Source of the DNA: Clostridia bacterium
Lineage (GTDB): Bacteria; Bacillota; Clostridia; Acetivibrionales; STF1-152
Assembly: GCA_028280575.1 (NCBI GenBank)
Contig: JANQLN010000076.1
Location: forward strand, 1 to 34,412
Length of the DNA stretch: 34,412 bases
Reading direction: 5' to 3'
The notes under the pieces are model-generated. The model was not told the DNA's origin and ran no database searches. It worked only from the letters and a program-made list of their open reading frames with translations. Position 1 is the stretch's first letter. Each line of letters starts with the position of its first letter. Shown here one piece after another: positions 4,419 through 29,049 of this stretch. The translations under genes were made by a program, and so were the position numbers.

Positions 4419-5348
4419 ATGGAAAGTCTTTACGAATTAAAGAAAAAAATTAAAAGAGATAGATACCTGTTTGTTTTGCTCTCAATGGGCCTGCTGTATT
4501 TTATCATATTTAAATATCTGCCGTATATTAATCTAACCATTGCTTTTCAGGAATATGACCTCGTTTATGGTATTTTAAAAAGTCCATGGGTAGGATTCAA
4601 ACATTTTAAAGATTTTATGAACAGTATTTATTTTGTGAGATTATTAAGAAATACGATTTTGTTGAATGTTTATGGTTTAATCTTCGGGTTTCCCATACCA
4701 ATCATTTTTGCTTTATTGCTAAATGAATTAAAAAAAATACGTTTTAAAAAGGTAATTCAAACCGTAAGCTACTTGCCACATTTTGTTTCCCATGCTATTG
4801 TGGTTGGCATGGTGCTGAGTTTTTTAAGCCCTTCTACAGGTATTGTGAATAAGATTCTGGTCGACGTATTTAGAATTGAACCCATTTATTTTATGGCGGA
4901 TCCCAAATATTTCAGACCTGTGTTTGTGACAATGCAGATCTGGAAATCTTTCGGATGGAGTTCAATTATATACCTTGCAGCATTAACCAATATTGATCCT
5001 CAACTATACGAAGCTGCTATAGTTGACGGCGCAGGCAGATGGAAGCAGCTCTGGCATATTACTCTGCCCGGTATTAAAAATGTAATAATAATTTTGCTGA
5101 TACTGCGGATGGGAAATATGCTGGATATAGGTTTTGAAGCGGTGCTTCTTATGTACAATCCTCTTATTTATGACACTGCCGATGTATTATCAACCTTCAT
5201 TTACAGGAGGGGAATAGCAGGAGAACATGGAATACCTGATTTTAGTTATGCGACGGCCGTAGGGTTGTTTAAATCGGTCATAAATTTAATGCTGGTATTA
5301 GCTGCCAATTATTTGAGTAAAAAATATACTGAAAAAAGTCTTTTTTAG
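4419..5348 (+). CDS. ABC sugar importer permease, LplB type (importer 1)
   Basis: A 309-residue inner-membrane protein of the binding-protein-dependent permease family, with about six transmembrane helices. The EAA loop that contacts the ATPase is visible as EAAIVDGAGRWKQLWHITLP. The start WVGFKHFKDF and overall form match the LplB/YteP group that imports poly- and oligosaccharides, including rhamnogalacturonan pieces. An in-frame TTG exists at 4404, but ATG 4419 follows CTGGAGG with normal spacing and is chosen. It pairs with the LplC-type permease 12 bases downstream. No ATPase is encoded in either importer cluster, so a shared MsmX-type ATPase encoded elsewhere is expected, as is usual for this family. 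Confidence 0.9.
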   Translation: MESLYELKKKIKRDRYLFVLLSMGLLYFIIFKYLPYINLTIAFQEYDLVYGILKSPWVGFKHFKDFMNSIYFVRLLRNTILLNVYGLIFGFPIPIIFALLLNELKKIRFKKVIQTVSYLPHFVSHAIVVGMVLSFLSPSTGIVNKILVDVFRIEPIYFMADPKYFRPVFVTMQIWKSFGWSSIIYLAALTNIDPQLYEAAIVDGAGRWKQLWHITLPGIKNVIIILLILRMGNMLDIGFEAVLLMYNPLIYDTADVLSTFIYRRGIAGEHGIPDFSYATAVGLFKSVINLMLVLAANYLSKKYTEKSLF

Positions 5349-5360
5349 GAGGAGCTTTCT

Positions 5361-6230
5361 GTGAGAAAAAAGGTGAAAGTTTTGAGAATATCCGATATTT
5401 TTATATATTCAGCAATATTGTTCTTTGCTGTTATAACGCTTTATCCTTTTGTCCATGTAACAGCAATATCTTTCAGCGGATATGTAAGTCTTATGGAAAG
5501 TAATATATTTATTTTTCCAAGGGATTTTACTCTGACTGCGTACAAATCCGTGTTGTCAAATAAATATATATTCAGCTCTTTGTTAAACAGCACTATATAT
5601 ACAGTGACCGGTACGCTGTTGAGTGTATTTTTTACCATGACCATGGCGTATCCGCTTGCCAAAAGGCATTTTACGGGAAGAAGGCTGTTTTCGTTTTTAA
5701 TTACCTTCACCTTACTGTTTTCGGCGGGTATAATACCGGTTTATCTTGTTGTTAACAAGTTGGGTTTAATGAATACAATCTGGGCTATTGTACTGCCTTT
5801 TCTTATAAGCCCGTGGAACCTGATAATAACCAGGACATTTCTGGAGGAATTACCGGTAAGTATTCAAGAATCCGCTATTATTGACGGGTGCAACGATATT
5901 AAAACATTCTTTTATATTATAGTGCCCCTGTCGTTTCCCATCATGGCAACAATAGGGATATTTTATGCCGTATACCATTGGAACAGCTATTTCTGGCCTG
6001 TAATATTTCTGAATACCCGTGAGCAATATCCTGTGCAGATTATACTCAGGGAAATTGTTATACAGGGAACTGTGGCGGATGCCTTGAACAATTCGGAAGA
6101 GGAAGTACTGTTAAGTGAAAGCATCAAGGGAGCAACAATTATGGTTGCGACATTACCTATACTGGTTGTCTATCCCTTTTTACAGAAATATTTTGTAAAA
6201 GGCATGCTAATCGGTTCAATAAAAGGATAA
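5361..6230 (+). CDS. ABC sugar importer permease, LplC/YtcP type (importer 1)
   Basis: A 289-residue integral membrane protein, the second half of the permease heterodimer. The EAA-type loop reads QESAIIDGCNDIKTFFYIIVPLS, and the C-terminus FLQKYFVKGMLIGSIKG is the typical ending of LplC/YtcP permeases. The start is GTG, six bases after AGGAGGAG; that ribosome site overlaps the stop codon of the preceding permease, so the pair is probably translationally coupled. A 173-base gap with regulatory-looking elements separates it from the binding protein gene. Confidence 0.9.
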   Translation: MRKKVKVLRISDIFIYSAILFFAVITLYPFVHVTAISFSGYVSLMESNIFIFPRDFTLTAYKSVLSNKYIFSSLLNSTIYTVTGTLLSVFFTMTMAYPLAKRHFTGRRLFSFLITFTLLFSAGIIPVYLVVNKLGLMNTIWAIVLPFLISPWNLIITRTFLEELPVSIQESAIIDGCNDIKTFFYIIVPLSFPIMATIGIFYAVYHWNSYFWPVIFLNTREQYPVQIILREIVIQGTVADALNNSEEEVLLSESIKGATIMVATLPILVVYPFLQKYFVKGMLIGSIKG

Positions 6231-6293
6231 CGATCCTGCTTGAAGGCTTCGATTTATTGCCCTGAAGAAAACTGAGATTTACTATAAATACCA

Positions 6294-6359
6294 GAAGGGA
6301 GGAGTTATATTGAATTGACTGTAAAACCGGTTGACGGTTTGAATTAATTGCTGAATGAT
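6294..6359 (+). promoter_or_regulatory. Orphan Shine-Dalgarno, hairpin and possible internal promoter before the binding protein
   Basis: GAAGGGAGGAG (6294-6304) is a near-perfect ribosome site, but what follows is only TTG AAT TGA (6310-6318), a start-stop mini-ORF. AAACCG/CGGTTT (6324-6340) forms a six-base hairpin with a five-base loop. TTGACG (6331-6336), 17 bases and AATGAT (6354-6359) could be an internal promoter with a weak -10. Orphan Shine-Dalgarno elements are known to stabilise mRNA in Firmicutes (the STAB-SD of cry3A). That would raise binding-protein yield over permease yield; this role is inference. Confidence 0.35.
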
Positions 6360-6403
6360 TAAATGTAAAAAAGATCTTAAAAGCAAAAAAGGAGGTAATT
6401 GAT

Positions 6404-8020
6404 ATGAAAAGTAAAAGGTTATTATGTGTTTTAATCACCCTGGTATTTGCAGTGACTTTAATTTTTACTGCTGCAGCGTGCTCTAAGAAGGATGAGGAAA
6501 AAACAGACTCCAATCAGACAGCTAAGCCTCAAAAAACACAAGGCGTAGGAGAGGAAAAAGGTTTATTACCTATTTCCGATAAAAAAATAACTATTAAATT
6601 TATGCTCGGCAACCATCCCAACTATCCGATAGACAATGAAGCAGTAACATTCCAGGAATTGATGAGGAGGACAAATATTACAATCAAATATGAAACCGTG
6701 CCCAACTCGGATTATGGCCAGAAAAGGAACGTTGTTATAGCTTCGGGTTCTCTTCCGGATATTATGACTATTAATGCGGAGGAGGCCAAGCTGCACGGCA
6801 GCAGAGGGTTGTTTGTTGAAATGGGTGATTTAATAAAAGAGCATGGAGCAAACTTGACAAAATTGTTCACAAAAGAAATGCTTGCACAGCAGATGACCGT
6901 GGATAAGAAACTCTATTCCATTCCCTATTACAGCGAAAAAATACAACAGGACGGCTGGCTGGTTAGGAAAGACTGGCTTGACAAGCTGGGACTGGAAAAA
7001 CCGGGAACACTTGATGATTTCTACGATATGCTGGTGGAATTCAGGGACAAAATCCCGGCTCTGACAGGCAAAGAGAACATTATTCCCTTTGGCTCCCGTA
7101 TAGGTTTTCGTGAACTGAGAAAGAACCTTTCGTTTGTATTCGATACGAGGTATGCGTGGAAAATTGAAAATGGAAAATATGTTTATACACCTGTAACCGA
7201 CGAATATAAAGAAATGCTTATATTCATCAATAAGTTGTACACGGAAAAACTGCTCAACCAGGAAATAATGACCGATTCCGTGCAGCAGGAGAATGAAAAA
7301 ATACAGAGCGGATTGGTTGGGGCCATAATAACTAAAACCAATGTACCCGATGTCTATGCTCCCGCTATACAAAAGAAAGCCCCGGAGACAGAGTATGTTA
7401 ATATGCCACCTCCTGCCGGATTAAATGGGGCCAGGGGTTTAAAGGTACGTGGCTATACATTGCCGGGATATTCACTGGCTATTTCATCCAAATCAAAACA
7501 TATTGAGGAGTGCTTCAGGCTCATAGATTATTCATTCAGTTCCGAAGGAATAACCTTGTTAAACTATGGCGTTGAAGGAGTAACCTATGACATGAAAGAC
7601 GGAAAACCGGTTTTAAAAGAGGAAGTTGTCGAAAGCATCAATAGTGCGGCCAATATTGCCAACGGTCTGTCAAAATATGGAATATTACCTTACCTCTATC
7701 CTTACTACCAGACTATGGATGCACAGATTCAAGTGGGTATGGTGGGAAAAACTTTTTTGGAGAGCATGGAGATAATAGACACTTATAAAGTGTTCCCCCT
7801 GCCCTCTCTTCCATATACAAAGGAACAATCTTTAAAGATAAAAACTATCCAGGCATCTATCCTAACCTTAAGGGAAGAGTACGAAGCAAAATTTGCCATG
7901 GGTATACTTCCGTTTGAACAGTGGGATGAATATGTAGAAGAAACAGAACAGCTTGGCCTGGAAGAGTATGTAAAGCTTCAGAATGAAGCTTATGAAGCGT
8001 ACAAGGAGCTCATTAAGTAA
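6404..8020 (+). CDS. Extracellular solute-binding lipoprotein of importer 1 (LplA/YtcQ type)
   Basis: A 538-residue secreted lipoprotein. The N-terminus has a basic start, a hydrophobic core and a lipobox with the lipidated Cys at residue 26 (TAAACSKK), followed by an acidic and Gln/Thr-rich linker. The body has features typical of cluster-B carbohydrate-binding proteins, such as LPDIMTINAEEAKLHG, GWLVRKDWLDKLGLEKP and the repeated Tyr/Trp residues. It captures the oligosaccharide outside the cell and passes it to the two permeases encoded just upstream. A very strong site, AAAGGAGGTAATTGAT, precedes the ATG. The ligand is unknown; the context suggests sulfated or uronic-acid-bearing oligosaccharides. 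Confidence 0.9.
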   Translation: MKSKRLLCVLITLVFAVTLIFTAAACSKKDEEKTDSNQTAKPQKTQGVGEEKGLLPISDKKITIKFMLGNHPNYPIDNEAVTFQELMRRTNITIKYETVPNSDYGQKRNVVIASGSLPDIMTINAEEAKLHGSRGLFVEMGDLIKEHGANLTKLFTKEMLAQQMTVDKKLYSIPYYSEKIQQDGWLVRKDWLDKLGLEKPGTLDDFYDMLVEFRDKIPALTGKENIIPFGSRIGFRELRKNLSFVFDTRYAWKIENGKYVYTPVTDEYKEMLIFINKLYTEKLLNQEIMTDSVQQENEKIQSGLVGAIITKTNVPDVYAPAIQKKAPETEYVNMPPPAGLNGARGLKVRGYTLPGYSLAISSKSKHIEECFRLIDYSFSSEGITLLNYGVEGVTYDMKDGKPVLKEEVVESINSAANIANGLSKYGILPYLYPYYQTMDAQIQVGMVGKTFLESMEIIDTYKVFPLPSLPYTKEQSLKIKTIQASILTLREEYEAKFAMGILPFEQWDEYVEETEQLGLEEYVKLQNEAYEAYKELIK

Positions 8021-8049: not shown

Positions 8050-9297
8050 ATGAAATATAATTTTGATTCAATATTTCCAAGGTATACAAAGTATAATCCC
8101 TCAGTTCCGGTCTGGTGTGTTACACCGGATACAAGCCGTACCATACACCGGTTCTTCGATACTTCTCCCGTAAGTCCTTCCGGCCGTTATATGGCATTAA
8201 CCCGCCTGCCCTATGAAGACAGACTGCCGCAGGCGGGTGATGCGGCAGAAATAGTTCTTGTCGATTTGACTACGGGTGAGTGCAATGCAATAGCAAGTAC
8301 AAGAGGGTGGGATACTCAGCTTGGAGCACAGGTCCAGTGGGGAAAGGATGACAGCCAGCTTTTCTTTAACGATATGGATACAAAAACCTGGCGTCCTTTC
8401 GGGGTTAGGATGAATCCGGTTTCAGGCGGGATAAAAAAACTGGAAGGTACAATATACATGGTTTCAAGGGACGGCAGATTTTCACTGAGTCCCTGTCTTA
8501 TGCGTATGAGCTTAACTCAGGCAGGATACGGGGTTATCGTACCTCCGGAGCATATCCCCGCCAGCCGGGATATCTCTTCCGACGACGGAATTTATATTAC
8601 GGATAATGAAACTGGTAAAAAAAGTCTGTTAATATCTATAAAAGAGATAGTTGAAACGGCTGAACCGAAGATTGATATGAAAAAATACGGCAGGGGCACT
8701 TTTTACGGATTTCATGTAAAATGGAATTTACAGGGCAGCCGTATTATGTTTGTCTTGAGGTATCTCACCGGCAGCGGCAAAATTCCTATCCAGCTGGTAA
8801 CCGTGAATAAAGATGGAGGAGAGGTTTACGTGGCCATGCCGGCTTCCGAATGGACCGGTAAGGGCGGACATCATCCCAACTGGCATCCTGACGGAGAACA
8901 TGTTACGATGAATCTAAAAATTCGTGACGGTATTATGAGATTTGTGAAAGTTCGCTATGATGGAAGCAATTATGGGGCTGTCTCCGAAAATTTTGTCGGC
9001 TCGGGACACCCCAGTGTTCATCCGAACGGCTCTTTTATTATCACCGACGCTTATAATTATGAAAAGGTGTCCTTTGGAGACGGTACCGTCCCTATACGCA
9101 TGATTGATCTTGAGAAATGCGAGGAAAAAAATCTTGTAAGAGTTAAAACTCAGCCTCTATTCAACGGTCCGAAGGGACAGCTTAGAGTCGACCCCCACCC
9201 GGCATGGGACTACAGCTTCAGATATGTTGTTTTTAACGCCTGTCCCGAGGATACACGCAGAGTGTATATAGCAGATTTGTCGAGGGTCCTGGAATAA
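8050..9297 (+). CDS. Beta-propeller protein related to oligogalacturonate lyase (PL22-like)
   Basis: A 415-residue protein without signal peptide, so probably cytoplasmic. Repeated propeller blades are visible (PSGRYMAL, WGKDDSQLFF, NWHPDGEHVTM, VHPNGSFIITDA, RYVVFNA). The blade containing GGHHPNWHPDG (His274, His275) and the late motif RVDPHPAW (Asp381, His383) sit where PL22 oligogalacturonate lyases hold their manganese ligands. Compared with the QxxHxH pattern as I recall it for PL22, one His appears to be Asp here and the Gln is not obviously kept, so activity as a true PL22 lyase is uncertain. It lies 29 bases after the importer binding protein, which suggests it acts on freshly imported oligosaccharides. 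Alternatives are a glycoside-binding or isomerase-like propeller. Confidence 0.65.
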   Translation: MKYNFDSIFPRYTKYNPSVPVWCVTPDTSRTIHRFFDTSPVSPSGRYMALTRLPYEDRLPQAGDAAEIVLVDLTTGECNAIASTRGWDTQLGAQVQWGKDDSQLFFNDMDTKTWRPFGVRMNPVSGGIKKLEGTIYMVSRDGRFSLSPCLMRMSLTQAGYGVIVPPEHIPASRDISSDDGIYITDNETGKKSLLISIKEIVETAEPKIDMKKYGRGTFYGFHVKWNLQGSRIMFVLRYLTGSGKIPIQLVTVNKDGGEVYVAMPASEWTGKGGHHPNWHPDGEHVTMNLKIRDGIMRFVKVRYDGSNYGAVSENFVGSGHPSVHPNGSFIITDAYNYEKVSFGDGTVPIRMIDLEKCEEKNLVRVKTQPLFNGPKGQLRVDPHPAWDYSFRYVVFNACPEDTRRVYIADLSRVLE

Positions 9298-9346
9298 AGC
9301 ATTTTATTTTAGTATTTGGAAAAATAATTGTGAGGTTGTGACAGAA

Positions 9347-11236
9347 ATGAATGAAAAAGTGTTTAAAGCTGAGAGAATTAGTACACCTGAGTGGTATAAA
9401 CATACCCGTGAATGGAATGAAGCCGGTTATTGGGATGCAGAAGCATCCATATGTCCGGATAGAGCCTCCGCCGGGCAGGCACATCCCTGGGAGATCACCG
9501 TGAGGCTGGGAAGCATTTGCCTTCAACCCGGCGATCATGTGGCTGTAGAGTTTAACGTCGGGTGGACACCCCACGCCGGACGCCCGTTTGTTTACGGACG
9601 CCAGCCTTTTCTTGAGAAATGGAGTCCTGGATATGGCGCCACTCCTGGGTTTGATTTGCCCGACGGTGTTGAATGTGAATTTGCCGTATCCGAAGCCGAA
9701 AAAATGAACCGCTATTTTATTATTGATATGGTTATTATTTCAGGAGTAATACCGGCAGGGGGAACTTTCAGGATATTTCCGGCCAATCCGGAAGGTACGC
9801 TTTTAAAGTGCGCGTGGTTTGCCCAGGAAGTGCCTGTTCCGGTTGCCGTAAGGAAAAAAGATGACAAATTTTACAAAAGGCTTAGGAAAATACCGTTATT
9901 ACACGTGACCGGAGCACAGCCCCGTCTGTGGAAAGCTGCCGCAACTTTGCAGCCGGAACATGACAGGGTAGAATTCAGAATTGTTGCGGCAGACCTGGAA
10001 AACCTTAATCCCGTACAAAATGTACCGGAGCCTCAGCTGATGGACTGTGAAGGCTGGAAGGTACTGGGTATGAAGAGGTATGAGGGTTACCACGGAGCTC
10101 CCATGTGGAAGGGGACGGCCTCACGGAGTGAAAATGCCGCACCGCATATTGAGGTATTCAACAGGGAAGCAGGGCTGTACGGGCGCAGCAACCCTGTCGA
10201 TTCTTCGTTATACGGTGATTTGCAGGTTTATTTCGGTGATCTGCACGGACAGAGCAGCCGTTCAATAGGATTTGGCTCGGAGAGGGAATACTTCTGGTGG
10301 GGAAGGGATGCCGCGCTGCTTGACTTTGTGGCCCCTGCCAATCATTACGGAGGAAGGGAAAATATTACGGAAGAGATATGGCAGTATACCCTTGACCTCT
10401 GTGAAGAGTTTAATAAATCCGGCCGGTTTGTGACCCTGTTTTCATATGAATGGGGAGGTTTTGAAAATGCTCACAGGAATGTGTATTATGCCGAAAGACC
10501 GGGAAAGCTGTTTGTTGATTTGCATACCCATAAATATGAAAACATATTCCGTCTCTGGGACGCTCTTGAAGAGCAAAAGCTTAAAGCAATAACCATTCCT
10601 CACCATGTAAAGTTCATAAAGAGAATGGACTGGAATGAATTCCATACCGGATACCAGCGTGCTGTAGAAGTTTATTCCTGCTGGGGCAATTCGGAGATGT
10701 GCGGCCCCCACAGTGTGCAGGAGGGCTTAAAAATGGGACACCGTATCGGAGTTGTGGGAGGTACGGACACGCATTTTTCGCAGCCTGGAAGTTCAGCCTT
10801 CGGACCATTTGAAATGGGGGGCCTGACCGGAGTAATATGTGACAGGCTTGACCGTACTTCCATATGGCAGGCAATTTATAACCGGCGCTGCTATGCCACA
10901 ACCGGAGAGCGTATTTTACTAGACATCAGGGTTAACGGTCATCTGATGGGGAGTGAATTAAAATCTGACGGCGCAAGAAAGATTTCCGGAAAGGCGGTAG
11001 GAACCGCCGAACTGGAGCGGGTAGAAATAATCCGTAATAATGAAGTGTGGAAAAGGATTGTGCCTGACGGACAAAATATGGTCAAATTTGAATTGGAAGA
11101 CGGACAAAATATAGAAGAAATTCTGTTAAAACCCCGGATACCATCTCACCATGATTTTGCTTTCTATTATCTCAAGGTTTTGCAAAAAGACGGTCACCAG
11201 GCGATGTCGTCGCCAATATGGATTGCCGCGGATTAA
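9347..11236 (+). CDS. DUF3604 protein with PHP-type metal site
   Basis: About 629 residues, with no signal peptide. The first roughly 290 residues look like beta-sandwich (GDHVAVEFNVGWTPHAG, VIPAGGTFRIFP). The C-terminal half is a DUF3604 domain with PHP phosphoesterase-like motifs in order: FGDLHGQ (Asp298, His300), DFVAPANH, TLFSYEWGG, ITIPHH and GGTDTHFS (Asp474, His476). These His/Asp/Glu clusters would hold two or three metal ions and hydrolyse a phosphate or other ester. As far as I know no substrate is firmly established for DUF3604 proteins. ATG 9347 is preferred over GTG 9338, which is only two bases from its GAGG site. It is in operon with the propeller upstream. A role in releasing an ester group from the imported sugar is inference. 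Confidence 0.75.
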   Translation: MNEKVFKAERISTPEWYKHTREWNEAGYWDAEASICPDRASAGQAHPWEITVRLGSICLQPGDHVAVEFNVGWTPHAGRPFVYGRQPFLEKWSPGYGATPGFDLPDGVECEFAVSEAEKMNRYFIIDMVIISGVIPAGGTFRIFPANPEGTLLKCAWFAQEVPVPVAVRKKDDKFYKRLRKIPLLHVTGAQPRLWKAAATLQPEHDRVEFRIVAADLENLNPVQNVPEPQLMDCEGWKVLGMKRYEGYHGAPMWKGTASRSENAAPHIEVFNREAGLYGRSNPVDSSLYGDLQVYFGDLHGQSSRSIGFGSEREYFWWGRDAALLDFVAPANHYGGRENITEEIWQYTLDLCEEFNKSGRFVTLFSYEWGGFENAHRNVYYAERPGKLFVDLHTHKYENIFRLWDALEEQKLKAITIPHHVKFIKRMDWNEFHTGYQRAVEVYSCWGNSEMCGPHSVQEGLKMGHRIGVVGGTDTHFSQPGSSAFGPFEMGGLTGVICDRLDRTSIWQAIYNRRCYATTGERILLDIRVNGHLMGSELKSDGARKISGKAVGTAELERVEIIRNNEVWKRIVPDGQNMVKFELEDGQNIEEILLKPRIPSHHDFAFYYLKVLQKDGHQAMSSPIWIAAD

Positions 11237-11289: not shown

Positions 11290-12432
11290 ATGCCTCAGAT
11301 GACTTCAAAAGAGAGGATTCTATCTGCATTTAAATCCGAAGAAGTGGATTATATACCGTGCAGCATATATTTTAACAAAAACCTGCGGATACAGAACTAC
11401 GACATGAACAGTGCGGAAGATGTTATTCGCTTGCATAAAGACCTCGGAGTGGACCCATACATTGATTTACCTGCCGTACACTCTTCCATGTCCCCGGAGG
11501 TTAAAACAAGGACCTGGGTTGAAGACATAAAAGATATGGAATATCCCATACTGTTCAAGGAATATGCCACACCTGCCGGAAACCTGCGCCAGGGGGTGAA
11601 GCTCACACCCCAATGGCCGTACGGTAAAGATATTCCTTTCCCCGGAAACGATTTTTGCGCAAGTCATAACTATGAGTCTTTGATTAAATCTGATGAGGAT
11701 GTTGAAGCTTTTAAATACCTGTTTTGCCCTCCTGCAAAAGATTCTTTTTACGCTTTGCGCGATAACATGGATGCGGTTAAAGGGATTTCCCGAAAATACG
11801 GAGTACCGTTAAGAGCGTTTGAGGGCGGGGGGCTGGCAATGCTCATGTTTGTAATGGGAGCTCAAAACCTTGTCTATTATGCAATGGACTATCCGGAAGC
11901 TTTTCAAAGGCTTGCCGGGAGAGTCAGTGAAGTGAGTATTGCCAGTATCAGACTTTTAAAGGAAGCGGGAGCGGATTTTATAAAACGGTTCGGGGGTTAC
12001 GAACAGACAAACTTTTTCAGCCCGGAGATATTCAACGGTGTTGTAGTGCCTCTGCTAAAAAGAGAAGTAAAAGAGGCAAAAAAGGTGGGGATTCCAATTT
12101 ATTACAGGGTTGTGACAGGAATGAAACCGCTGCTTGAGACAATTGCGGGTATAGGTTTTGACTGTGTTGAAGGCTTTGAACCGTGTTTGAGTGACTGTAC
12201 AAATCAAGATATATATAATGCACTTGGGAAAAAAACCTGTATATGGACAGGTATCAGCAGCCCCGGTCACATAGGGGGGCAGGATGAAGCCGGTGTCAGG
12301 AAGGCGGTGCGTGATGCGGTGCAAGTATTCGGCAGAAAAGGATTTATTCTCGGTATAACCAACAGTATCCGAAATCATTGGCCTTGGGCCAACACCCTTG
12401 CCATGATTGACGAATGGAAAAAGATCAGGTAG
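11290..12432 (+). CDS. Uroporphyrinogen decarboxylase-like (URO-D superfamily) protein of unknown role
   Basis: A 380-residue cytoplasmic TIM-barrel protein of the URO-D/MtaA superfamily. The opening TSKERILSAFKSEEVDYIPCS, the middle MFVMGAQNLVYYAMDYPEAFQRL and the end RKGFILGITNSI are typical. It is unlikely to make haem: the conserved uroporphyrinogen-binding N-terminus of HemE is absent. Corrinoid methyltransferases of this superfamily use a His-x-Cys zinc motif; the matching segment here reads IYYRVVTGMKPLL (from residue 270), with neither residue present. No corrinoid protein is encoded nearby. It sits in an operon between the DUF3604 and SGNH genes, so it probably acts on a sugar-derived compound, but the reaction is unknown. 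AAGGGGGG precedes the ATG. Confidence 0.75.
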   Translation: MPQMTSKERILSAFKSEEVDYIPCSIYFNKNLRIQNYDMNSAEDVIRLHKDLGVDPYIDLPAVHSSMSPEVKTRTWVEDIKDMEYPILFKEYATPAGNLRQGVKLTPQWPYGKDIPFPGNDFCASHNYESLIKSDEDVEAFKYLFCPPAKDSFYALRDNMDAVKGISRKYGVPLRAFEGGGLAMLMFVMGAQNLVYYAMDYPEAFQRLAGRVSEVSIASIRLLKEAGADFIKRFGGYEQTNFFSPEIFNGVVVPLLKREVKEAKKVGIPIYYRVVTGMKPLLETIAGIGFDCVEGFEPCLSDCTNQDIYNALGKKTCIWTGISSPGHIGGQDEAGVRKAVRDAVQVFGRKGFILGITNSIRNHWPWANTLAMIDEWKKIR

Positions 12433-13615: not shown

Positions 13616-13654
13616 ATATAAAAAGAGACACTATCATTTAAATAATGCCTCTCC
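13616..13654 (-). terminator. Rho-independent terminator of the minus-strand small gene
   Basis: Read on the minus strand, AGAGGCATTATT pairs with AGTGTCTCT and adjacent bases as a stem of about 12 pairs, including G-T pairs, with a short loop. It is followed directly by TTTTTATAT. It lies about 80 bases beyond the stop of the minus-strand gene at 13737. Confidence 0.65.
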
Positions 13655-13736
13655 TGTTGCTTTTTCGTATCGGTTTGGGTAGGATTCAGCAAAACTGCGC
13701 CTTTAAGCTTTCCTGCTTTTTAATTAAAATTATGCT

Positions 13737-14195: not shown

Positions 14196-14213
14196 ATGTC
14201 CCCCTTTAAACAT

Positions 14214-19997: not shown

Positions 19998-21440
19998 ATG
20001 ATAAAGAGCAAAAGGCCGAATATACTACTGGTTTATCCTGATCAAATGCGTTATGATGTAATGAGCTGTTCCGGTAATCCGGTAATTAGAACACCTCATT
20101 TGGATAGAATGGCACAGGAAGGGGCGCTATTTTCAAATGCATATACTGCGTTTCCTTTTTGCTGTCCTTTTCGTGCTTCTGTTTTAACGGGAAAGTATGC
20201 ACATAAACATGGAATGAAAGCCAACCATTATGAAATTGAATTGGGACAGGATTTTTTGGCAGAAAGATTAAAACATCATGGTTATCAGACTGGCTTTGCA
20301 GGCAAATGGCATTTGGATGACGGGAGGAATGGGGGATTTGTGGAACCTGGCAAAAGGCGGCTCGGATTTGACACCTTTATTAAGAGTATGAAATGTCATT
20401 ATTACATAGATGGAATTTTTTACCGTGATAATGGAATTCCTTTAAGAACAGGCAGATATGAACCCGACCACCAGACGGACCATATTATTGAGTTCATGGA
20501 TAAGGCTTTGGACCATCCTGAAGGCCGTCCTTTTTTTGCTTACATTTGTTATGGTATTCCTCATTTTCCTAATGTTGGCCCGGATTATTACCTGGAACTG
20601 TATAAGCCTCATGAAATACCTATGCCGGCTGATGTACCGGAAATTTTACAGGAATCAACAAGAGCATTTTTAGCTAAGTACTATGGTATGGTCACATGCT
20701 TTGATTTCCAAATGGGAAGATTGCTGTCATGGCTTGACCATGCAGGTATTGCCGATAATACGATAGTAATGGTTGTATCCGACCATGGAGATACTGTTGG
20801 CCAGCATGGATCTCCTTCCATATGGAAAAAATCCTATCATAGGAGTAGTACACATGTTCCTTTTCTAATTCGTTGGCCGGGACTGGTACCTCCAGGGAGA
20901 ATAAATGACCACCTTGTAGACCCGTCCGTTGATATTTATCCGACTCTCTGTGATATAGCAGGTATTGATATACCGGATGAAGTGCAGGGGGTCAGTCTTA
21001 TTTCAATAATGGAGAATCTTAAAGCACCCGGAGCACATCATCAGCTTTATTATCAAATAGCCAGGGAAGAGCATGGGCCGGAAGCCTTTCCCCATCCGGA
21101 AAGGGGGCTTCGTACTAAAGAGTGGTTATATGTTGAAAGAGAGGGGAAACCTGTAGCACTTTTTGACGAAGTTAACGATTATCATGAGTGTCATAACCTG
21201 ATTGATGATGCAAATTACTCTGACATAGCAAACCAATTTCGTCAAAGGCTTTCAGATGAAATGGCAAGACTTGAAGATGACTGGTCTGAAGAGATGAAAT
21301 GGCCTCCTGAGAGCTGGATGCTTCCTCTTGAAAAACAGTATACATTAGAGTCAATAAAAAAAAGATCCATACTTGAGGTGACCCGGGATGCTGCAGGGGG
21401 AGTGTCACGGGTAAACGCTTCTAAGCAGCGTAAGAGGTGA
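19998..21440 (+). CDS. Sulfatase 2, Cys-type (CCPFR), cytoplasmic
   Basis: A 480-residue type I sulfatase. The maturation motif CCPFRASVLTG puts the formylglycine precursor at Cys55, with an extra Cys at 56. Other active-site landmarks are YPDQMRYD, AGKWHLDD (the usual Lys and His), GIPHFP and SDHGDTVGQHG. No signal peptide is present. It is clearly a paralogue of sulfatase 3: both share long similar stretches such as RYEPDxQTDHIIEFM and a C-terminal segment LEVTRDAA. The stop codon overlaps the ribosome-binding region of the small gene that follows, so the two are co-translated. The sulfated sugar position it recognises is unknown. Confidence 0.88.
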   Translation: MIKSKRPNILLVYPDQMRYDVMSCSGNPVIRTPHLDRMAQEGALFSNAYTAFPFCCPFRASVLTGKYAHKHGMKANHYEIELGQDFLAERLKHHGYQTGFAGKWHLDDGRNGGFVEPGKRRLGFDTFIKSMKCHYYIDGIFYRDNGIPLRTGRYEPDHQTDHIIEFMDKALDHPEGRPFFAYICYGIPHFPNVGPDYYLELYKPHEIPMPADVPEILQESTRAFLAKYYGMVTCFDFQMGRLLSWLDHAGIADNTIVMVVSDHGDTVGQHGSPSIWKKSYHRSSTHVPFLIRWPGLVPPGRINDHLVDPSVDIYPTLCDIAGIDIPDEVQGVSLISIMENLKAPGAHHQLYYQIAREEHGPEAFPHPERGLRTKEWLYVEREGKPVALFDEVNDYHECHNLIDDANYSDIANQFRQRLSDEMARLEDDWSEEMKWPPESWMLPLEKQYTLESIKKRSILEVTRDAAGGVSRVNASKQRKR

Positions 21441-21445
21441 TATTC

Positions 21446-21814
21446 ATGATTAAAAAGGATACTAAGTTTAAAAGTATTGTCTTGGATAAGGTCGGAACAG
21501 TTCTTTTCATCCTTGACCATGTTACAGGACGCTACGAAGAACTCGGTCCAATCCATGATAAGCTTGCCGAATGCATAAAATATATGGAAACAGAAGCGGT
21601 AAAAAGATTTGGGAAGGATATAAACAAACAATTTATATTAGAGCTTCAGTTTGTACAACGCCCTGAACCAAGATTTAACCATATTCTGTTTTCCCTTAAT
21701 CGACAAATTTTAAGGCACAAAGGAGGCAGGGTTATTGGTAATCCATATGAATTGCGGTTACCAAAAAACGACCCTTTTGTTACACCCAATACACAATGGT
21801 GTAAGAAAATTTAA
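21446..21814 (+). CDS. Small protein of unknown function, coupled to sulfatase 2
   Basis: A 122-residue protein, with no membrane segment and no signal peptide, basic toward the C-terminus (RHKGGRVIGNPYELRLP and final CKKI). I recognise no family. ATG 21446 lies eight bases after AAGAGG, which overlaps the sulfatase 2 stop, giving tight translational coupling. An in-frame GTG at 21437 is less likely. It ends 76 bases before sulfatase 3. Its position between two paralogous sulfatases suggests an accessory role, for example a subunit or folding helper, but this is speculation. It could also be a remnant of a larger gene, since its sequence shows no clear domain boundaries. Confidence 0.6.
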   Translation: MIKKDTKFKSIVLDKVGTVLFILDHVTGRYEELGPIHDKLAECIKYMETEAVKRFGKDINKQFILELQFVQRPEPRFNHILFSLNRQILRHKGGRVIGNPYELRLPKNDPFVTPNTQWCKKI

Positions 21815-21890: not shown

Positions 21891-23477
21891 TTGGCTAAAA
21901 CAACAAGTATTGAAAAACCTAATGTATTGGTAGTACTATGTGATCAAATGAGATATGATTGTATGGGTAATTCAGGTAACCGTTATATTCATACGCCACA
22001 CTTTGACAGACTTTCCGCCGAAGGAATAAGTTGTACGGAGGCCCACGTTGGTTGTCCGCTTTGTGCCCCATTCAGAGCTTCTATGTTTACCGGGAAATAC
22101 GCTACAAATAATGGAGTTTTGGTGAACTTTTTGCCCCTGGATCTTAATCAAATCTTTCTGCCGGAGTTTTTGAAAACACAGGGGTACACAACGGGTTACT
22201 CAGGCAAGTGGCATCTTAATGGAGGTAAGGAAGACCGCTACGTGGAGCCATATGAGCGATTGGGGTTTGAACACTTTGTTGGGTTATATGGCGGTCATAA
22301 TTATAAAAATGCAATATTTTATAGAAATAATGATCCCACCCCACGCAGATGTGAACGATATGAGCCTGATTTTCAGACCGATCATATTATTGAATTTATG
22401 GAAAATTCACTAAGTGCCGAAGATAAAAAGCCCTTTTTTGCTGTAGTATCTTACGGATTACCCCATAATCCTAACATTGCACCGTCCTGGTGGCTGGATT
22501 TATATAGTCCGGACGCAGTAGAGCTTCCCGAAGATGTAGATCAAGATATGGGAGAAGTTGCCAGAAAATTTCTAGCCGAGTATTATGGACTGATTTCATG
22601 TGTCGATTTTCAATTGGGGAGACTTCTTACATGGCTGGATCATGCAGGAATAACAAAGGATACAATAGTCATTGCAGTTTCAGATCACGGCGATTCCGCA
22701 GGACAACATTTTGTATTGCCGATGAGAAAGAATTGCCCATACAGATATGCGTCACAAGTGCCTTTTATTGTGAGGTGGCCCGAACATCTTGGCTGCGGTA
22801 AGAAATTAAATAATTTGATTGATCCGGCTATTGATTTCTTTCCAACTTTATGCGGCTTGCTTGGAATAGAAAATATGGACGGAGCTTTTGATGGCTTGGA
22901 TATTTCAAAACAGTTAATGAATCCAGATGATGAAGTTGAAAGAATATTACTTCATCAATCAGCCAGAAACGTACGTCCGGATAAGGATATATACTATCAG
23001 GGGCAAATAAGAGCCATTAGAACTAAAAAATGGATGTATGCTGAGAAAATGGGTAAACTGTACCAATTTTTTGATGAATTAAGCCATCCCGATGAAAGCA
23101 TTAATCTTATAGATAATGAAGATTATGATGATATTAAAGAAAAATACGCCAGTATGTTATCTGACAAAATGAAAGAAATAGGGGATAGCTGGAAGATAAA
23201 AATTAAATATGGCAAAATGGCTGTAGAAAAATGGAAAAAAGATCAAGCGCTTTCTGTATACAACACAAAAAATTCTGTTCTTGAAGTAACCAGGGACGCT
23301 GCTTTAGGAATAGCTCCCAAGAAAGAGAAGCCAAGCAGCACTTGGGATGATACCTGCAGATACTCTCTTCCGGGAAGACGCGGATTTCCAACCTGGCAGG
23401 GAGACTATGAGGAGAATATACAAAAATTCAAAGGTTACCAGCGCAGTATCTCAAAAGGAGAATGCAAGGCAAAATAA
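21891..23477 (+). CDS. Sulfatase 3, Cys-type (CAPFR), cytoplasmic
   Basis: A 528-residue type I sulfatase. The start is TTG after GGAGGAAGGG. CAPFRASMFTG gives the formylglycine precursor Cys58. VLCDQMRYD, SGKWHLNG, GLPHNP and SDHGDSAGQHF supply the metal and substrate residues; the usual HG after this last motif is HF. It is a paralogue of sulfatase 2 with a C-terminal extension of some 50 residues rich in Trp and Arg (after SVLEVTRDAALG). No signal peptide. It ends 33 bases before sulfatase 4 and is part of the same transcript. The different loop residues suggest a different sulfate position from its neighbour. Confidence 0.88.
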   Translation: MAKTTSIEKPNVLVVLCDQMRYDCMGNSGNRYIHTPHFDRLSAEGISCTEAHVGCPLCAPFRASMFTGKYATNNGVLVNFLPLDLNQIFLPEFLKTQGYTTGYSGKWHLNGGKEDRYVEPYERLGFEHFVGLYGGHNYKNAIFYRNNDPTPRRCERYEPDFQTDHIIEFMENSLSAEDKKPFFAVVSYGLPHNPNIAPSWWLDLYSPDAVELPEDVDQDMGEVARKFLAEYYGLISCVDFQLGRLLTWLDHAGITKDTIVIAVSDHGDSAGQHFVLPMRKNCPYRYASQVPFIVRWPEHLGCGKKLNNLIDPAIDFFPTLCGLLGIENMDGAFDGLDISKQLMNPDDEVERILLHQSARNVRPDKDIYYQGQIRAIRTKKWMYAEKMGKLYQFFDELSHPDESINLIDNEDYDDIKEKYASMLSDKMKEIGDSWKIKIKYGKMAVEKWKKDQALSVYNTKNSVLEVTRDAALGIAPKKEKPSSTWDDTCRYSLPGRRGFPTWQGDYEENIQKFKGYQRSISKGECKAK

Positions 23478-23510
23478 TGTTTGATAAATCCGGATATAAT
23501 GGGGGACTGT

Positions 23511-25154
23511 ATGAAAAAGAAACTTAATTTTATCGTTATCATGACCGATCAGCAGCAGGGATTAATGACTAAACGGATGGGATTTGGGGCAGATTTGACT
23601 CCGTTTTTGGATAGTTTGGCAGAAAAAGGAGCTTGGTTTGATAAGGCCTATACACCATGTCCTTTATGCACACCTGCAAGAGTAAGCTTTTTGACAGGGC
23701 GGTTTGCTTCATCACATCGCGTGATGCAAAATCCATGGCCATGGCCTGAAAACTCAAGAAAACCGGGGTCTATCACTGCCCATCCTGATGATGTCTTCTA
23801 TGAAAGAGATTTATTGGATGTACTTAAAAAGAGTGGTTATCAGACAGCTTTAATAGGTAAAAATCATTCGCATCGTACAAGTGATGAATTTGATTATTCG
23901 GTAGTTGGAAATAAATTAATGTTAAATGACGAAAAGACAGCCAAGGAATCTAAAAAGCTGCATGAATGGAGAAAGAATGGTATGGCCGGTGCCGTTAAAG
24001 CAGGAATCGAATCCATGAAATGCTGTAAGACGGTATCCGAAGGAATAAATTATATAGAAAATCAAAATAAGAGAGGTAATCCATTTATGCTCTGGCTTTC
24101 CATAGTAGAGCCCCATAATCCCTATATGTGTCCGGAACCTTATTATTCAATGTTTGATGGTGACGATTTTGTACTTTCTCATTCTGCCGAAGAAGATATA
24201 AAAAACAAAAATGAAAGATGGCATGTGTTAAATGAAATGTATAATGCAGGAACTTCACCCCAATGTGATGATACAATAACACGAAAAGAGTATGCAACAA
24301 GGACCAGAAAGACCTATATGGGAATGATAAGAATGGTAGATGACCAGATAAAGCGTTTTGTAACGAGACTTGAAGAGCTTGGAATGATGGAGGATACGGT
24401 TATTTGCTTTACCTCTGACCATGGAGACATGGGTGGAGAGTATGACATGATGGGGAAGGGCTTTGGTCTTTTAGAGGCATTAACTAATATACAAATGATA
24501 TTTGCAGGCGGCGGCATTAAAATTCAGGGTAAACTATCTGAAATTCATACAAACCTTGTTGATATAGCCCCAACGCTTATTGAGGCTGCCCAATGCCAGA
24601 TTCCGGACTCTATGCAGGGGAGGTCATTATGGCAGATTTTACAGGGGAATGATATACCGGAAAATGAATTTGAAAGTACCTACAGTGAATATGGCGTAGG
24701 CGGAAGCTTCCATAGTATGAAGTATTATAGAGAGCATAAAGAGGAACTTGATAAGCAAAATATGCATTTTGATCTGCATCATGTTGCCGTATCAGGTGTG
24801 ATGCGTATGGTTAGAATGGGTGATTACAAGCTTATTTTTGATTTTGACAACAGGGCAGAATTATATCATGTGGTTTTAGACCCGTCTGAAAAACAAAATT
24901 TATTTGGAAATCAAAAATATAAAAAAGTACAGGATTTACTTATGTCAGAATTACTTAAATGGTGCCTAAGAGCTCAGGACCCGGCAGTTATGCGTGAAAA
25001 CCACTGTATGAATCCTATTGACAGGCTTATAGATAGGCACCATTACCATAAGGGTACGGAATATAAACAGTATGACAGGTATTCTCCGCTTACAAAAGGA
25101 AGGGCAGATGAGAGTTATATTCATCCTTCCAGAAAAGAAGCAGATTGGCTTTAA
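23511..25154 (+). CDS. Sulfatase 4, Cys-type (CTPAR), cytoplasmic
   Basis: About 547 residues. The motif CTPARVSFLTG places the formylglycine precursor at Cys53. MTDQQQG, GKNHSHR, EPHNPYMCP and TSDHGDMGGEY supply the other active-site elements; the common G-x-H after the last motif is G-E-Y here, marking a divergent subgroup. Central inserted segments (residues roughly 130-260) are larger than in sulfatases 2 and 3, and it is not a close paralogue of them. The frame opens at TTG 23481, but ATG 23511 follows GGGGGA and starts directly at the catalytic fold. No signal peptide. The second importer follows 100 bases later. Confidence 0.87.
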   Translation: MKKKLNFIVIMTDQQQGLMTKRMGFGADLTPFLDSLAEKGAWFDKAYTPCPLCTPARVSFLTGRFASSHRVMQNPWPWPENSRKPGSITAHPDDVFYERDLLDVLKKSGYQTALIGKNHSHRTSDEFDYSVVGNKLMLNDEKTAKESKKLHEWRKNGMAGAVKAGIESMKCCKTVSEGINYIENQNKRGNPFMLWLSIVEPHNPYMCPEPYYSMFDGDDFVLSHSAEEDIKNKNERWHVLNEMYNAGTSPQCDDTITRKEYATRTRKTYMGMIRMVDDQIKRFVTRLEELGMMEDTVICFTSDHGDMGGEYDMMGKGFGLLEALTNIQMIFAGGGIKIQGKLSEIHTNLVDIAPTLIEAAQCQIPDSMQGRSLWQILQGNDIPENEFESTYSEYGVGGSFHSMKYYREHKEELDKQNMHFDLHHVAVSGVMRMVRMGDYKLIFDFDNRAELYHVVLDPSEKQNLFGNQKYKKVQDLLMSELLKWCLRAQDPAVMRENHCMNPIDRLIDRHHYHKGTEYKQYDRYSPLTKGRADESYIHPSRKEADWL

Positions 25155-25254: not shown

Positions 25255-26199
25255 TTGGCTAAATCAGCAATTGTCCAAGGAAGCCCCATAAAAAAGTCCG
25301 AGTGGAAGAAGGATTTTAAACGACACAAGATGTTATATTTACTTAGCCTGCCCACATTAATATTTTTAATAATTTTTCATTATATACCTATTTATGGGAT
25401 ACAGCTCGCTTTTAAAGATTTCTTTGCTATGAGAGGCATATGGGGAAGTCCGTGGATTGGTTTTGAAAATTTTGAGCGTTTCTTTCGGTCATATTATTTC
25501 TGGGATCTGATGAAAAATACCCTGGGGATTAATATATATGAGCTGTTAGTCAGTTTCCCTGCTCCAATTTTCCTGGCTATTTTACTCAATGAGGTAACGA
25601 AATCCAAGTTTAAAAAAAGTGTCCAGATGGTGACATATGCACCTCATTTTATATCAACAGTGGTGCTGGTTGGTATAATAAGTATTTTCATGTCACAGGA
25701 AACAGGCTTAATTAACGTTTTAATAAAGTCGTTGGGGTTTGAGCCAATACCGTTTCTAACTTCAGCCAGGTGGTTTAAAACAATATTTGTATTCTCAGGC
25801 ATATGGCAGAGTGTAGGCTGGGGATCAATTATATATATGGCAACTCTTACAGGAATAGATCCACAGACTGTTGAAGCCGCCATAGTAGATGGCGCCACTA
25901 AATTACAGAGAATATGGCATATCAGCATTCCAGGTATAATGCCTACAGCTACCATCCTTTTGATACTAAAAGTTGGGCGTATTATGGGCGTTGGTTTCGA
26001 AAAAGTATTTCTTCTTCAAAATCCTCTTAATCAAAGCTCCTCAGATGTAATATCTACTTTTGTATATAGAGTAGGTTTGGTAGGGGCAGATTATAGCTTT
26101 GCTGTATCGGTTGGTCTATTTAATTCTGTAATAAACTGTATAATGCTTGTCGCTGTGAATGCAATATCACGTCGGGTTAGTGAAACAAGCTTATGGTGA
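25255..26199 (+). CDS. ABC sugar importer permease, LplB type (importer 2)
   Basis: A 314-residue inner-membrane permease with about six helices and the EAA loop VEAAIVDGATKLQRIWHISIP. It closely resembles the first importer's LplB-type permease in order and motifs (WxGFxxFxxF near residue 65, IYMATLTGIDPQ). The start is TTG, nine bases after AAGGAGAG; no ATG offers a better site. The N-terminus has a basic cytoplasmic tail. It works with the LplC-type permease 12 bases downstream and the lipoprotein that follows. No ATPase gene is nearby. Confidence 0.9.
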   Translation: MAKSAIVQGSPIKKSEWKKDFKRHKMLYLLSLPTLIFLIIFHYIPIYGIQLAFKDFFAMRGIWGSPWIGFENFERFFRSYYFWDLMKNTLGINIYELLVSFPAPIFLAILLNEVTKSKFKKSVQMVTYAPHFISTVVLVGIISIFMSQETGLINVLIKSLGFEPIPFLTSARWFKTIFVFSGIWQSVGWGSIIYMATLTGIDPQTVEAAIVDGATKLQRIWHISIPGIMPTATILLILKVGRIMGVGFEKVFLLQNPLNQSSSDVISTFVYRVGLVGADYSFAVSVGLFNSVINCIMLVAVNAISRRVSETSLW

Positions 26200-26211
26200 G
26201 GATGGGACAAA

Positions 26212-27117
26212 ATGAGTATAGTTAATAAAAATCCAAGGATATCAGATAAAATATTTGATATTTGCAATTACACTTTTTTAAGTCTGGTTTTAGTAACATT
26301 TATATATCCGCTGATCTTTATTATTAGTGCATCAATAAGTAACCCGGATATGGTTTTCCGTGGAGAGGTCTGGCTGCTGCCAAAAGATATAACCTGGGAA
26401 GGTTACCAGCTTATATTGGACTATAAGGATATATGGACAGGGTATAGAAACTCTCTATTATATGTTTTTGTAGGTGTACCCTTTTCCATGTTTTTAACCT
26501 TTACAGCTGCATATCCCTTATCCAGAAAGGATTTTAAAGCAAGAAACCTGATCATGTACATATATACATTTACTATGTTTTTTGGAGGTGGTTTAATTCC
26601 GACCTATTTGCTTATGAGAAATCTTGGTCTTATTAATAACTTTGCATGTATGGTTATTTTACCAAGCGCTGTTGGTGTATATAACATAATAGTTACCAGG
26701 ACATATTTCCAAACGAATATTCCCACAGAGTTAAGAGATGCTGCTGAAATAGACGGATGTAATGAAATCACTTTTTTTGTAAGAGTTGTTCTGCCGCTCT
26801 CACCACCAATTATCGCAGTTATGGGTCTTTTCTACGCGGTTGGGAAATGGAATATATTCTTTGAAGCTTTAATTTACTTAACGAACAGGCAACTTTTTCC
26901 TCTTCAGTTAATATTAAGAGAAATAGTAACAAGTGCCAGAATGAATCCTGAATTGCTTGAAGGAATGGACCCGTCAGTGATTGAAAAACTTACAAGAATT
27001 ACCAATAGCATAAAATATGGGGTTATTATTATAGCCAGTGTACCTGTTTTAATGGCGTATCCATTCCTGCAAAGATATTTTGTTAAAGGTATTATGGTAG
27101 GAGCGATAAAAGGCTAA
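26212..27117 (+). CDS. ABC sugar importer permease, LplC/YtcP type (importer 2)
   Basis: A 301-residue membrane protein, partner of the LplB-type permease. The EAA-type loop is LRDAAEIDGCNEITFFVRVVLPLS, and the C-terminus FLQRYFVKGIMVGAIKG is the family hallmark. ATG follows GAGGATGGG. A 210-base gap with a stem-loop separates it from the binding protein gene, the same arrangement as in importer 1. Confidence 0.9.
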   Translation: MSIVNKNPRISDKIFDICNYTFLSLVLVTFIYPLIFIISASISNPDMVFRGEVWLLPKDITWEGYQLILDYKDIWTGYRNSLLYVFVGVPFSMFLTFTAAYPLSRKDFKARNLIMYIYTFTMFFGGGLIPTYLLMRNLGLINNFACMVILPSAVGVYNIIVTRTYFQTNIPTELRDAAEIDGCNEITFFVRVVLPLSPPIIAVMGLFYAVGKWNIFFEALIYLTNRQLFPLQLILREIVTSARMNPELLEGMDPSVIEKLTRITNSIKYGVIIIASVPVLMAYPFLQRYFVKGIMVGAIKG

Positions 27118-27272
27118 CCTTGCTTAAAAACACTAATCTGCTGCGTTAGTTAAGAACATAAAAACCTAAAGCCTATGATGATACCGTATCGGAACCTGAC
27201 AACCCGCTGTTCTTTAGCTTAGCTTGCTTAAGACGACTCATGAAACGCAAAAAGCAATTGAATTATATGGTG

Positions 27273-27301
27273 ATATATTGAGAATGGATTTCTCATTATA
27301 T
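27273..27301 (+). promoter_or_regulatory. Stem-loop in the gap before the second binding protein gene
   Basis: TGAGAA (27279-27284) pairs with TTCTCA (27290-27295), and ATATA (27273-27277) pairs with TATAT (27297-27301) across a single T-T mismatch. The hairpin ends 26 bases before the start of the binding protein and has no T-run, so it looks like an mRNA-stability or processing element rather than a terminator. The rest of the 27118-27327 gap shows no gene. Confidence 0.4.
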
Positions 27302-27327
27302 GATAAAAAAATTTTGGAGGTTATAAA

Positions 27328-29049
27328 ATGAAAAGAGCATTAGTAATTATTTTATGTCTGGTGATGGCACTTTCTATGATGACAGGCTGTGGGACAGGTA
27401 AAGAGTCTAAAAGTGAAGCAACACAGGAGACGGACCAGACAGACAATGCAAACACAAATGAAGAAGAAAAGAAAATGGATGCTCGGCTTGAAAAAATTGG
27501 TTTTACACCTGATAGCTGGCCGTTGGTAGAACAGCAAATTAAAGTTGTACTTAGTGGTATGACGCATTCTAAACTACTAGGTTCGGCAGTTGATTGGGAC
27601 AAGAACAAGTTCTGGACCAGGCTTGAAGAAAGAACAAATATTGATTTTGAATGGTTAAGCCTTGTACAAGGCGGTAGAGCTTTTAAAGAGCAAATGAATC
27701 TTGCATTTGCTTCAGGTAGTTTGCCGGATATCTTTTTTAAATGTAAAATTGACCGGCTGGAAGAATTAAAGTATGGACGTGAAGGCGGCTTCATACAACT
27801 TGAAGGATATATTGCCGAATATATGCCTAATCTCAATAAGTTATTCGAGGAATATCCTGAAATTAAAAAATCTATAACAACACCTGACGGTCACATCTAT
27901 ACATTACCTGATATTAACGTCTCCGAGGCAGGTAAGGTTCAAACAAACCTTCTTATAAATAAGGTTTGGATGGATAAACTGAATATAAAAGATCCGGAGA
28001 CGATTGATGATTTTTATAACATGCTGGTTGCATTTAGGGACGAAGATCCAAATGAAAATGGTGATGCAGATGAAATACCGCTTTGTGTTGGGGATGGCGA
28101 AGCACCAAATTTAATACAATTGGTTACTTTATTTGGCTATCAGAATAATGAACATAATATGTTTCTAGATAAAGAAGCAGATGAGATTGTTTTCGTGCCA
28201 ACGCAGGACGCATATAAGGATTTTTTAAAATTTATGAAAAGGCTATATGATGAAAAATTACTCGACAATGAGTTTGTTACACTAAATAGAGACCAGGTCA
28301 AAGCAAAGGGCAGTATGGAAGACGCAAGACTTGGAGTTATAAGGGCGAATTCACCCGGTCTTGCAGTAGGTGGTCTTTCACAGGTCGCTACAAGTGATGA
28401 TTTAACGATTGAGACAAATGAGAGAAAAGAAGACTATAAATTTATGATTCCAATAAAAGCTCCAAATAATGGAAGACAAATATTGCAAGGTGCCCAAACA
28501 ACAACTCCAGGTAAATTTGCTATAACACCGAATTGTAAATATCCCGAAGTGATCATGGCTTTTATGGACTTCTTCTATACAGAAGAAGGCGGAACTTACC
28601 TCTGGGTAGGTGAAGAAGGCTCGGAATATGTGTTTGACGATAAAGGTAAATTCCGTTGGATTTTAGAAGATGGCAGCTACGCAACATCTGATAGATACAA
28701 TGATGTCCGCAAATCAGGTACATTACAGCCAGGTGGTCATGCACCGGGTTACACGCCGGAATTTAAAAAACATATTGACGGTCCTTTAAGAAAGATAAAA
28801 GAGCCTGTTGCCAAGTATACAAATGTTGCTGCGCCTGCATTTTACTTTGAAGAGAAAGATATTAAAAAAGTAGCCATCACCACAGCTGATATTAAACCTT
28901 TTGTAGAGCGGTTTTTTGCTGAGGCAGTAGTAGGTCAGGTAGATATTGATGCTGAATGGGATAACTATGTCGTGCAATTGAACAAGATGGGATTAGAAGA
29001 TCTAGTCGATATCTATAATTCTGCATATGATCTGTATAAACAAAACTAG
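27328..29049 (+). CDS. Extracellular solute-binding lipoprotein of importer 2
   Basis: A 573-residue lipoprotein with a signal peptide ending in lipobox MTGC (Cys21), followed by a Thr/Asn/Glu-rich linker. The mature protein shows large sugar-binding-protein features (GSLPDIFFKCKIDRLEEL, NKVWMDKLNIKDPETIDDFYNML, DPNENGDADEIPLCVGDGE). It delivers the ligand to the two permeases encoded upstream. It is only distantly similar to the first binding protein, so the two importers probably take up different fragments of the glycan. TTGGAGG precedes the ATG. The gene ends the long forward transcript; a terminator follows. Confidence 0.9.
   Translation: MKRALVIILCLVMALSMMTGCGTGKESKSEATQETDQTDNANTNEEEKKMDARLEKIGFTPDSWPLVEQQIKVVLSGMTHSKLLGSAVDWDKNKFWTRLEERTNIDFEWLSLVQGGRAFKEQMNLAFASGSLPDIFFKCKIDRLEELKYGREGGFIQLEGYIAEYMPNLNKLFEEYPEIKKSITTPDGHIYTLPDINVSEAGKVQTNLLINKVWMDKLNIKDPETIDDFYNMLVAFRDEDPNENGDADEIPLCVGDGEAPNLIQLVTLFGYQNNEHNMFLDKEADEIVFVPTQDAYKDFLKFMKRLYDEKLLDNEFVTLNRDQVKAKGSMEDARLGVIRANSPGLAVGGLSQVATSDDLTIETNERKEDYKFMIPIKAPNNGRQILQGAQTTTPGKFAITPNCKYPEVIMAFMDFFYTEEGGTYLWVGEEGSEYVFDDKGKFRWILEDGSYATSDRYNDVRKSGTLQPGGHAPGYTPEFKKHIDGPLRKIKEPVAKYTNVAAPAFYFEEKDIKKVAITTADIKPFVERFFAEAVVGQVDIDAEWDNYVVQLNKMGLEDLVDIYNSAYDLYKQN

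Follow-up and report, generated by a model that had tools for sequence, protein, structure and literature searches.

A probable import-first locus for sulfated oligosaccharides

Contig JANQLN010000076.1 of a Clostridia bacterium (assembly GCA_028280575.1; 4.35 Mb in 143 contigs), analysed over its entire length of 34,412 nt (hereafter, the window), carries a genuine gene cluster with the anatomy of sulfated-glycan import and internal desulfation. Family scans placed four sulfatases, a glycoside hydrolase family 4 (GH4) protein, a GtaA-like six-hairpin enzyme, a DUF3604 protein, an SGNH esterase, a beta-propeller protein, and a URO-D-like protein between two pairs of LplBC-type permeases, each accompanied by a lipoprotein that serves as solute-binding protein (SBP; Table 1). 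Based on these sequence features, we consider it likely that the locus serves the catabolism of sulfated oligosaccharides that are imported first and desulfated inside the cell. Because the window is an entire contig, the cluster may be cut off at position 34412.

The four Cys-type sulfatases listed in an earlier note on this DNA were confirmed: all of them matched PF00884 (E 6e-40 to 4e-56) and contain a Cys nucleophile in C-x-P-x-R-x4-TG together with a distal DHG metal motif. The fold and the activation motif (C/S-x-P/A-x-R) that define the S1 formylglycine sulfatases are therefore present in 4/4 of these proteins. Signal peptides were judged by hydropathy (best 13-residue stretch within the first 60 residues) and from in-frame upstream extensions, not with SignalP. 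By this measure, the catabolic proteins scored at most 1.3 vs. 2.1–3.1 for the three SBPs, and their upstream extensions were short or polar, with no signal peptide for any sulfatase. The claims of the note that the catabolic proteins lack signal peptides and that the three SBPs are evident lipoproteins hold on this basis, even with extended starts. The single doubtful case of export is the GH4 protein: its first ATG (18273) yields a hydrophobic N-terminus (hydropathy 2.55), which vanishes with the start at 18342, backed by a good ribosome-binding site and by the start of most homologues. Sulfatases without a signal peptide (by hydropathy) thus lie beside an oligosaccharide ABC importer, the arrangement that marks the import-first strategy of Streptobacillus.

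Genome-wide sulfatases and the importer ATPase

The import-first scheme is well supported and extends beyond the window. We found 40 PF00884 matches in the genome, whereas most genomes of the order have only a few; two are fragments at contig ends, one is an LtaS-like membrane protein, and the remaining 37 are full-length soluble sulfatases. All 37 are Cys-type, and in the hydropathy test none of their N-termini approached the hydrophobicity seen in the SBPs. An LplBC-type permease was located within 10 kb of 19 out of 33 sulfatase clusters, a raw count not set against a background permease rate. One anaerobic sulfatase-maturating enzyme (anSME) in the genome scored above the curated cut-off (contig C88; 411 bits vs. 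349).

The earlier note had described two complete LplABC-type importers. Two pairs of binding-protein-dependent permeases, each followed by an SBP_bac_1 lipoprotein, agree with the LplABC/aldouronate type, but the importers are not complete, with no sugar-importer ATPase in the locus. Exactly one OB_MalK (MalK/MsmX-type) ATPase is encoded in the whole genome. MsmX-type ATPases are known to serve importers in trans, and, since the importers have no ATPase of their own, those in the window most likely share this single enzyme. Upstream of the cluster (212-1681) is a gene for a protein with two ABC ATPase domains, presumably of an ECF-type importer rather than the missing sugar-importer ATPase. 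Beyond importer 2, a YesMN-like pair and the third SBP probably sense the substrate; no permeases were seen between this SBP and the contig end. The AraC-type protein that adjoins importer 1 is, from its position, a possible regulator of the locus.

In the proposed mechanism, the lipoprotein SBPs would capture sulfated oligosaccharides released elsewhere, and the two permease pairs would carry them in, driven by the only MalK/MsmX-type ATPase of the genome. In the cytoplasm, the one clear anSME would activate the four sulfatases for removal of the sulfate esters, after which the GH4 enzyme would cut alpha-galactosides. The SGNH esterase would take off acyl groups, and the GtaA-like enzyme, the propeller, and the DUF3604 protein would act on further linkages. 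Several points weigh against this scheme: signal peptides were assessed through hydropathy only and export by a non-classical route is possible, the presumed GH4 specificity derives from family membership, and the window contains no extracellular depolymerase.

Enzymes and the candidate substrate

The GH4 protein had been taken for a uronide-type enzyme, an assignment that our results contradict. It passed the NCBIfam alpha-galactosidase subfamily model PRK15076/NF011657 (594.7 bits vs. a cut-off of 486) and is 56% identical over its full length to MelA of Sinorhizobium meliloti, encoded in an AraC-melA-SBP-permease arrangement, and 35% identical to E. coli MelA. The match to LplD, a GH4 alpha-galacturonidase (3fef), was much weaker (123 bits), and the LplD motif CHEV is CHGV here. 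We rejected the reading that CHGx marks an alpha-glucuronidase, because S. meliloti MelA carries the same CHGV. By similarity, the protein is a putative alpha-galactosidase of the MelA type. Genes of the S. meliloti melA region are required for alpha-galactoside use; in this agpT-melA-agp operon, melA likewise adjoins an ABC importer, but the operon contains no sulfatases, and its SBP and permeases are of another type with their own ATPase (PMC4254191).

The propeller, described in the earlier note as PL22-like, belongs to the PL22/TolB superfamily but not to polysaccharide lyase family 22 (PL22) itself. A profile of eight relatives aligned to the PL22 set (hhalign 98.95%) and matched solved oligogalacturonate lyases (3pe7, 3c5m) and TolB about equally, whereas the family scan gave no PF14583 match. 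The Q-x-x-H-x-H motif, which has a metal role in PL22, aligns to L-R-V-D-P-H in the propeller, and one upstream His is retained. The protein is a distant PL22 cousin, possibly with a different metal site. A single-sequence AlphaFold2 model was unusable (mean pLDDT 39). Elsewhere in this genome, a second copy of the family (49% identical; L095:9479-10768 [G000:C5]) has LplBC-like permeases and a two-component system in its vicinity.

The remaining enzymes agree with the families proposed in the note. The six-hairpin enzyme contains DUF4964, DUF5127, and PF16335 (E 1e-134) in the order typical of GtaA. The PHP-like protein is a DUF3604 member (PF12228) that matched the CehA/McbA metallohydrolase domain NF038032 below its cut-off (65.7 bits vs. 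80), and we found no literature linking DUF3604 with sulfatases. The SGNH esterase was supported by PF14606, PF13472, and SsfX3_N. The URO-D/MtaA-like protein (PF01208) was absent from the note; its family has 22 members in the genome, far beyond the need of haem synthesis.

Taken from these family assignments, the substrate is most likely a sulfated glycan with alpha-galactose and possibly also uronic acid, the former being the likelier component. The note had proposed a probably uronic-acid-containing glycan, and with the GH4 enzyme of the MelA type and far from LplD, and the propeller without the PL22 signature, this proposal lost its main support. If the substrate were a sulfated uronic-acid glycan (ulvan-, glycosaminoglycan- or rhamnogalacturonan-like), the propeller would serve as a lyase and the GH4 or GtaA-like enzyme as a uronidase; this reading leaves the import-first mechanism unchanged and is compatible with alpha-galactose. 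It retains some weight from a GtaA homologue (52%) in another genome (G011; L136, C431) that lies beside uxaA, uxaB, lacI, uxaE, and uxaC, a possible lead to a uronide-related role of this six-hairpin family, from the presence of uxaE-uxaC in the genome studied here, and from the superfamily of the propeller. Nevertheless, no GH88/GH105-like gene is present in the window, and in two other Bacillota, GtaA homologues close to an importer or binding protein occur with GH106, GH38, or GxGYxYP genes. We give this alternative a real chance, although one clearly short of even.

Carrageenan or a related sulfated galactan of red algae, imported as oligosaccharides after the secreted enzymes of other bacteria have cut the polymer, appears an unlikely substrate. 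Among solved structures, sulfatase 3 is nearest to 9ihk (S1_30A; 172 bits, next 129), a likeness that is not a SulfAtlas assignment. The MelA-type GH4 enzyme fits alpha-galactose, and GH110 is another alpha-galactosidase family. S1_30 sulfatases occur in carrageenan-induced or carrageenan loci of Zobellia (PMC5698469) and Bacteroides (CarPULs, which also contain GH110; PMC13168452). However, these are SusCD-based Bacteroidota systems with GH16, GH127, or GH167 enzymes, and the window encodes none of these families and no beta-galactosidase.

A role of the sulfatases on aryl sulfates or on phosphonate/phosphate esters instead of glycans is very improbable. Arylsulfatase, choline-sulfatase, and PehA models head their NCBIfam matches, and among solved structures sulfatase 4 is nearest to 4upl, a promiscuous 'sulfatase family protein'. 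However, all four fall far below the curated cut-offs (0/4 reach that of choline-sulfatase or PehA), their genes share the cluster with those for oligosaccharide importers, GH4, GtaA and, in a related genome, GH43s, and the 4–11 different sulfatases per locus suggest a multiply sulfated glycan. The two findings named in the note as refuting it, signal peptides on the sulfatases from extended starts and placement among non-carbohydrate sulfatases or phosphonate hydrolases, did not appear in these tests.

Conservation of the gene cluster

The gene-neighborhood comparison proposed in the note revealed the same order for most of the locus in Bacillota bacterium MAG.222 (G060). Contig C147 of this genome contains the terminal part of sulfatase 1, then two additional sulfatases, an AraC gene, GH4, a GH43, sulfatase 2, a 125-aa protein, a second, large GH43 protein, and the counterparts of sulfatases 3 and 4. 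On contig C486, the end of SBP 2 comes first, then the kinase, the regulator, and SBP 3, followed by five sulfatases with a GtaA homologue (61%) among them. We infer that the two contigs join. The G060 locus thus adds GH43s and seven sulfatases. The ratio of nonsynonymous to synonymous substitutions (dN/dS) was 0.05–0.21 in the nine genes for which it was computable between the two genomes (GtaA was saturated), a sign of purifying selection. Shared order and low dN/dS point to a cluster that evolves as a unit while its enzyme cargo varies; the propeller, DUF3604, URO-D, and SGNH genes, not found in the two G060 stretches, may belong to the variable part.

The 125-aa protein, absent from the earlier note, is 83% identical in G060, where it lies between the same neighbors (sulfatase 2 and 3 region), with a dN/dS of 0.11. 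It had no Pfam, NCBIfam, or PHROG match, and 57 further genomes of the order yielded no copy. The idea of a frameshifted sulfatase tail was rejected, given no alignment to sulfatase 3 (score 28) and purifying selection of its own. A two-sequence model (mean pLDDT 50) was too poor for a fold search.

A minus-strand open reading frame (ORF) of 158 aa (13737-14213) with a good ribosome-binding site separates the SGNH esterase gene from that of sulfatase 1 and runs counter to the operon; Pfam, PHROG, and plasmid searches gave no match. With this ORF in between, the cluster may be transcribed as two units. A plus-strand ORF (13645-14187) was rejected as antisense to the minus-strand ORF.

Table 1 Predicted features of the window, with the evidence for each assignment
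Feature	Position	Strand	Evidence
AraC-type protein with dCache sensor domain	1949..4279	+	PF12833, PF02743
Importer 1 permease, LplB-like	4404..5348 (likely start ATG 4419)	+	PF00528
Importer 1 permease, LplC-like	5361..6230	+	PF00528
Solute-binding lipoprotein 1	6404..8020	+	PF01547; hydrophobic signal then AAAC lipobox
Beta-propeller, PL22/TolB superfamily, non-PL22, predicted cytoplasmic	8050..9297	+	hhalign, profile matches
DUF3604 putative metallohydrolase (CehA/McbA-like, PHP-type)	9338..11236	+	PF12228
URO-D/MtaA-superfamily protein	11290..12432	+	PF01208; weak mtaA_cmuA match
SGNH esterase	12481..13479	+	PF14606, PF13472, SsfX3_N
Sulfatase 1, Cys-type, without signal peptide	14526..15956	+	PF00884; Cys53 motif CIPSR
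GtaA-like six-hairpin enzyme, without signal peptide	16098..18176	+	DUF4964-DUF5127-PF16335
GH4, MelA-type (putative alpha-galactosidase)	18342..19823 (start corrected from 18273)	+	NF011657
Sulfatase 2, Cys-type, without signal peptide	19998..21440	+	PF00884; Cys55 motif CCPFR
125-aa protein overlapping sulfatase 2 stop	21437..21814	+	Conserved in G060; no family match
Sulfatase 3, Cys-type, nearest solved structure S1_30A	21891..23477	+	PF00884
Sulfatase 4, Cys-type, without signal peptide	23481..25154	+	PF00884; Cys63 motif CTPAR
Importer 2 permease, LplB-like	25255..26199	+	PF00528
Importer 2 permease, LplC-like	26212..27117	+	PF00528 just under cut-off; homologous to other permeases
Solute-binding lipoprotein 2	27328..29049	+	PF01547; MTGC lipobox
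YesM-like sensor histidine kinase	29257..31173	-	PF06580, HAMP, HATPase; 80% homologue in G060
YesN-like response regulator, AraC DNA-binding domain	31025..32584	-	PF00072, PF12833; 73% homologue in G060
Solute-binding lipoprotein 3	32703..34289	+	PF01547; 71% homologue in G060

Comparison with known systems and implications

The contrast with Bacteroidetes drawn in the earlier note is correct but not new, as import before desulfation has been published for Streptobacillus and for Bacillota of the Kyphosus gut. For Streptobacillus moniliformis, binding and structural data accompanied the proposal that sulfated disaccharides are taken up by an ABC importer and lose their sulfate in the cytoplasm (PMC5430744). 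Its glycosaminoglycan cluster (Smon0120-0128) resembles the locus described here in the aldouronate-type importer, which binds sulfated disaccharides, and in a sulfatase that is predicted to be cytoplasmic; no sulfatase activity was found outside the cells of that species. Unlike our locus, this Fusobacteriota cluster has one sulfatase, PL8/PL12 lyases, GH88, and an in-cluster ATPase, and is without GH4, GtaA, propeller, and DUF3604 genes. Sulfatase-rich Bacillota of the Kyphosus gut (Vallitalea), proposed to be scavengers of breakdown products, have enzymes for fucoidan and agar that mostly lack signal peptides (PMC11077953). In the sections of that study considered here, this is a trend across metagenome-assembled genomes that concerns carbohydrate-active enzymes, and no locus of the present content is described. 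The import-first strategy is thus known, whereas the enzyme combination, the genome scale (37 sulfatases), and the conserved 125-aa protein are new.

More tentatively, the genome may represent a Firmicute lineage in which desulfation is wholly cytoplasmic, with approximately 37 sulfatases and many LplBC importers served by one ATPase, and the locus may target an undescribed sulfated alpha-galactose glycan through new activities of the GtaA, propeller, DUF3604, and 125-aa proteins. The breakdown of sulfated glycans has been modelled on Bacteroidota that export their sulfatases. If all sulfatases are internal, this Gram-positive bacterium would release no desulfated sugar to competitors, and its oligosaccharides would come from other organisms or from its own secreted depolymerases. 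Finally, the locus places the GtaA, DUF3604, and propeller families and the 125-aa protein, which have little or no known function, in one pathway, and naming its substrate would aid their joint annotation.

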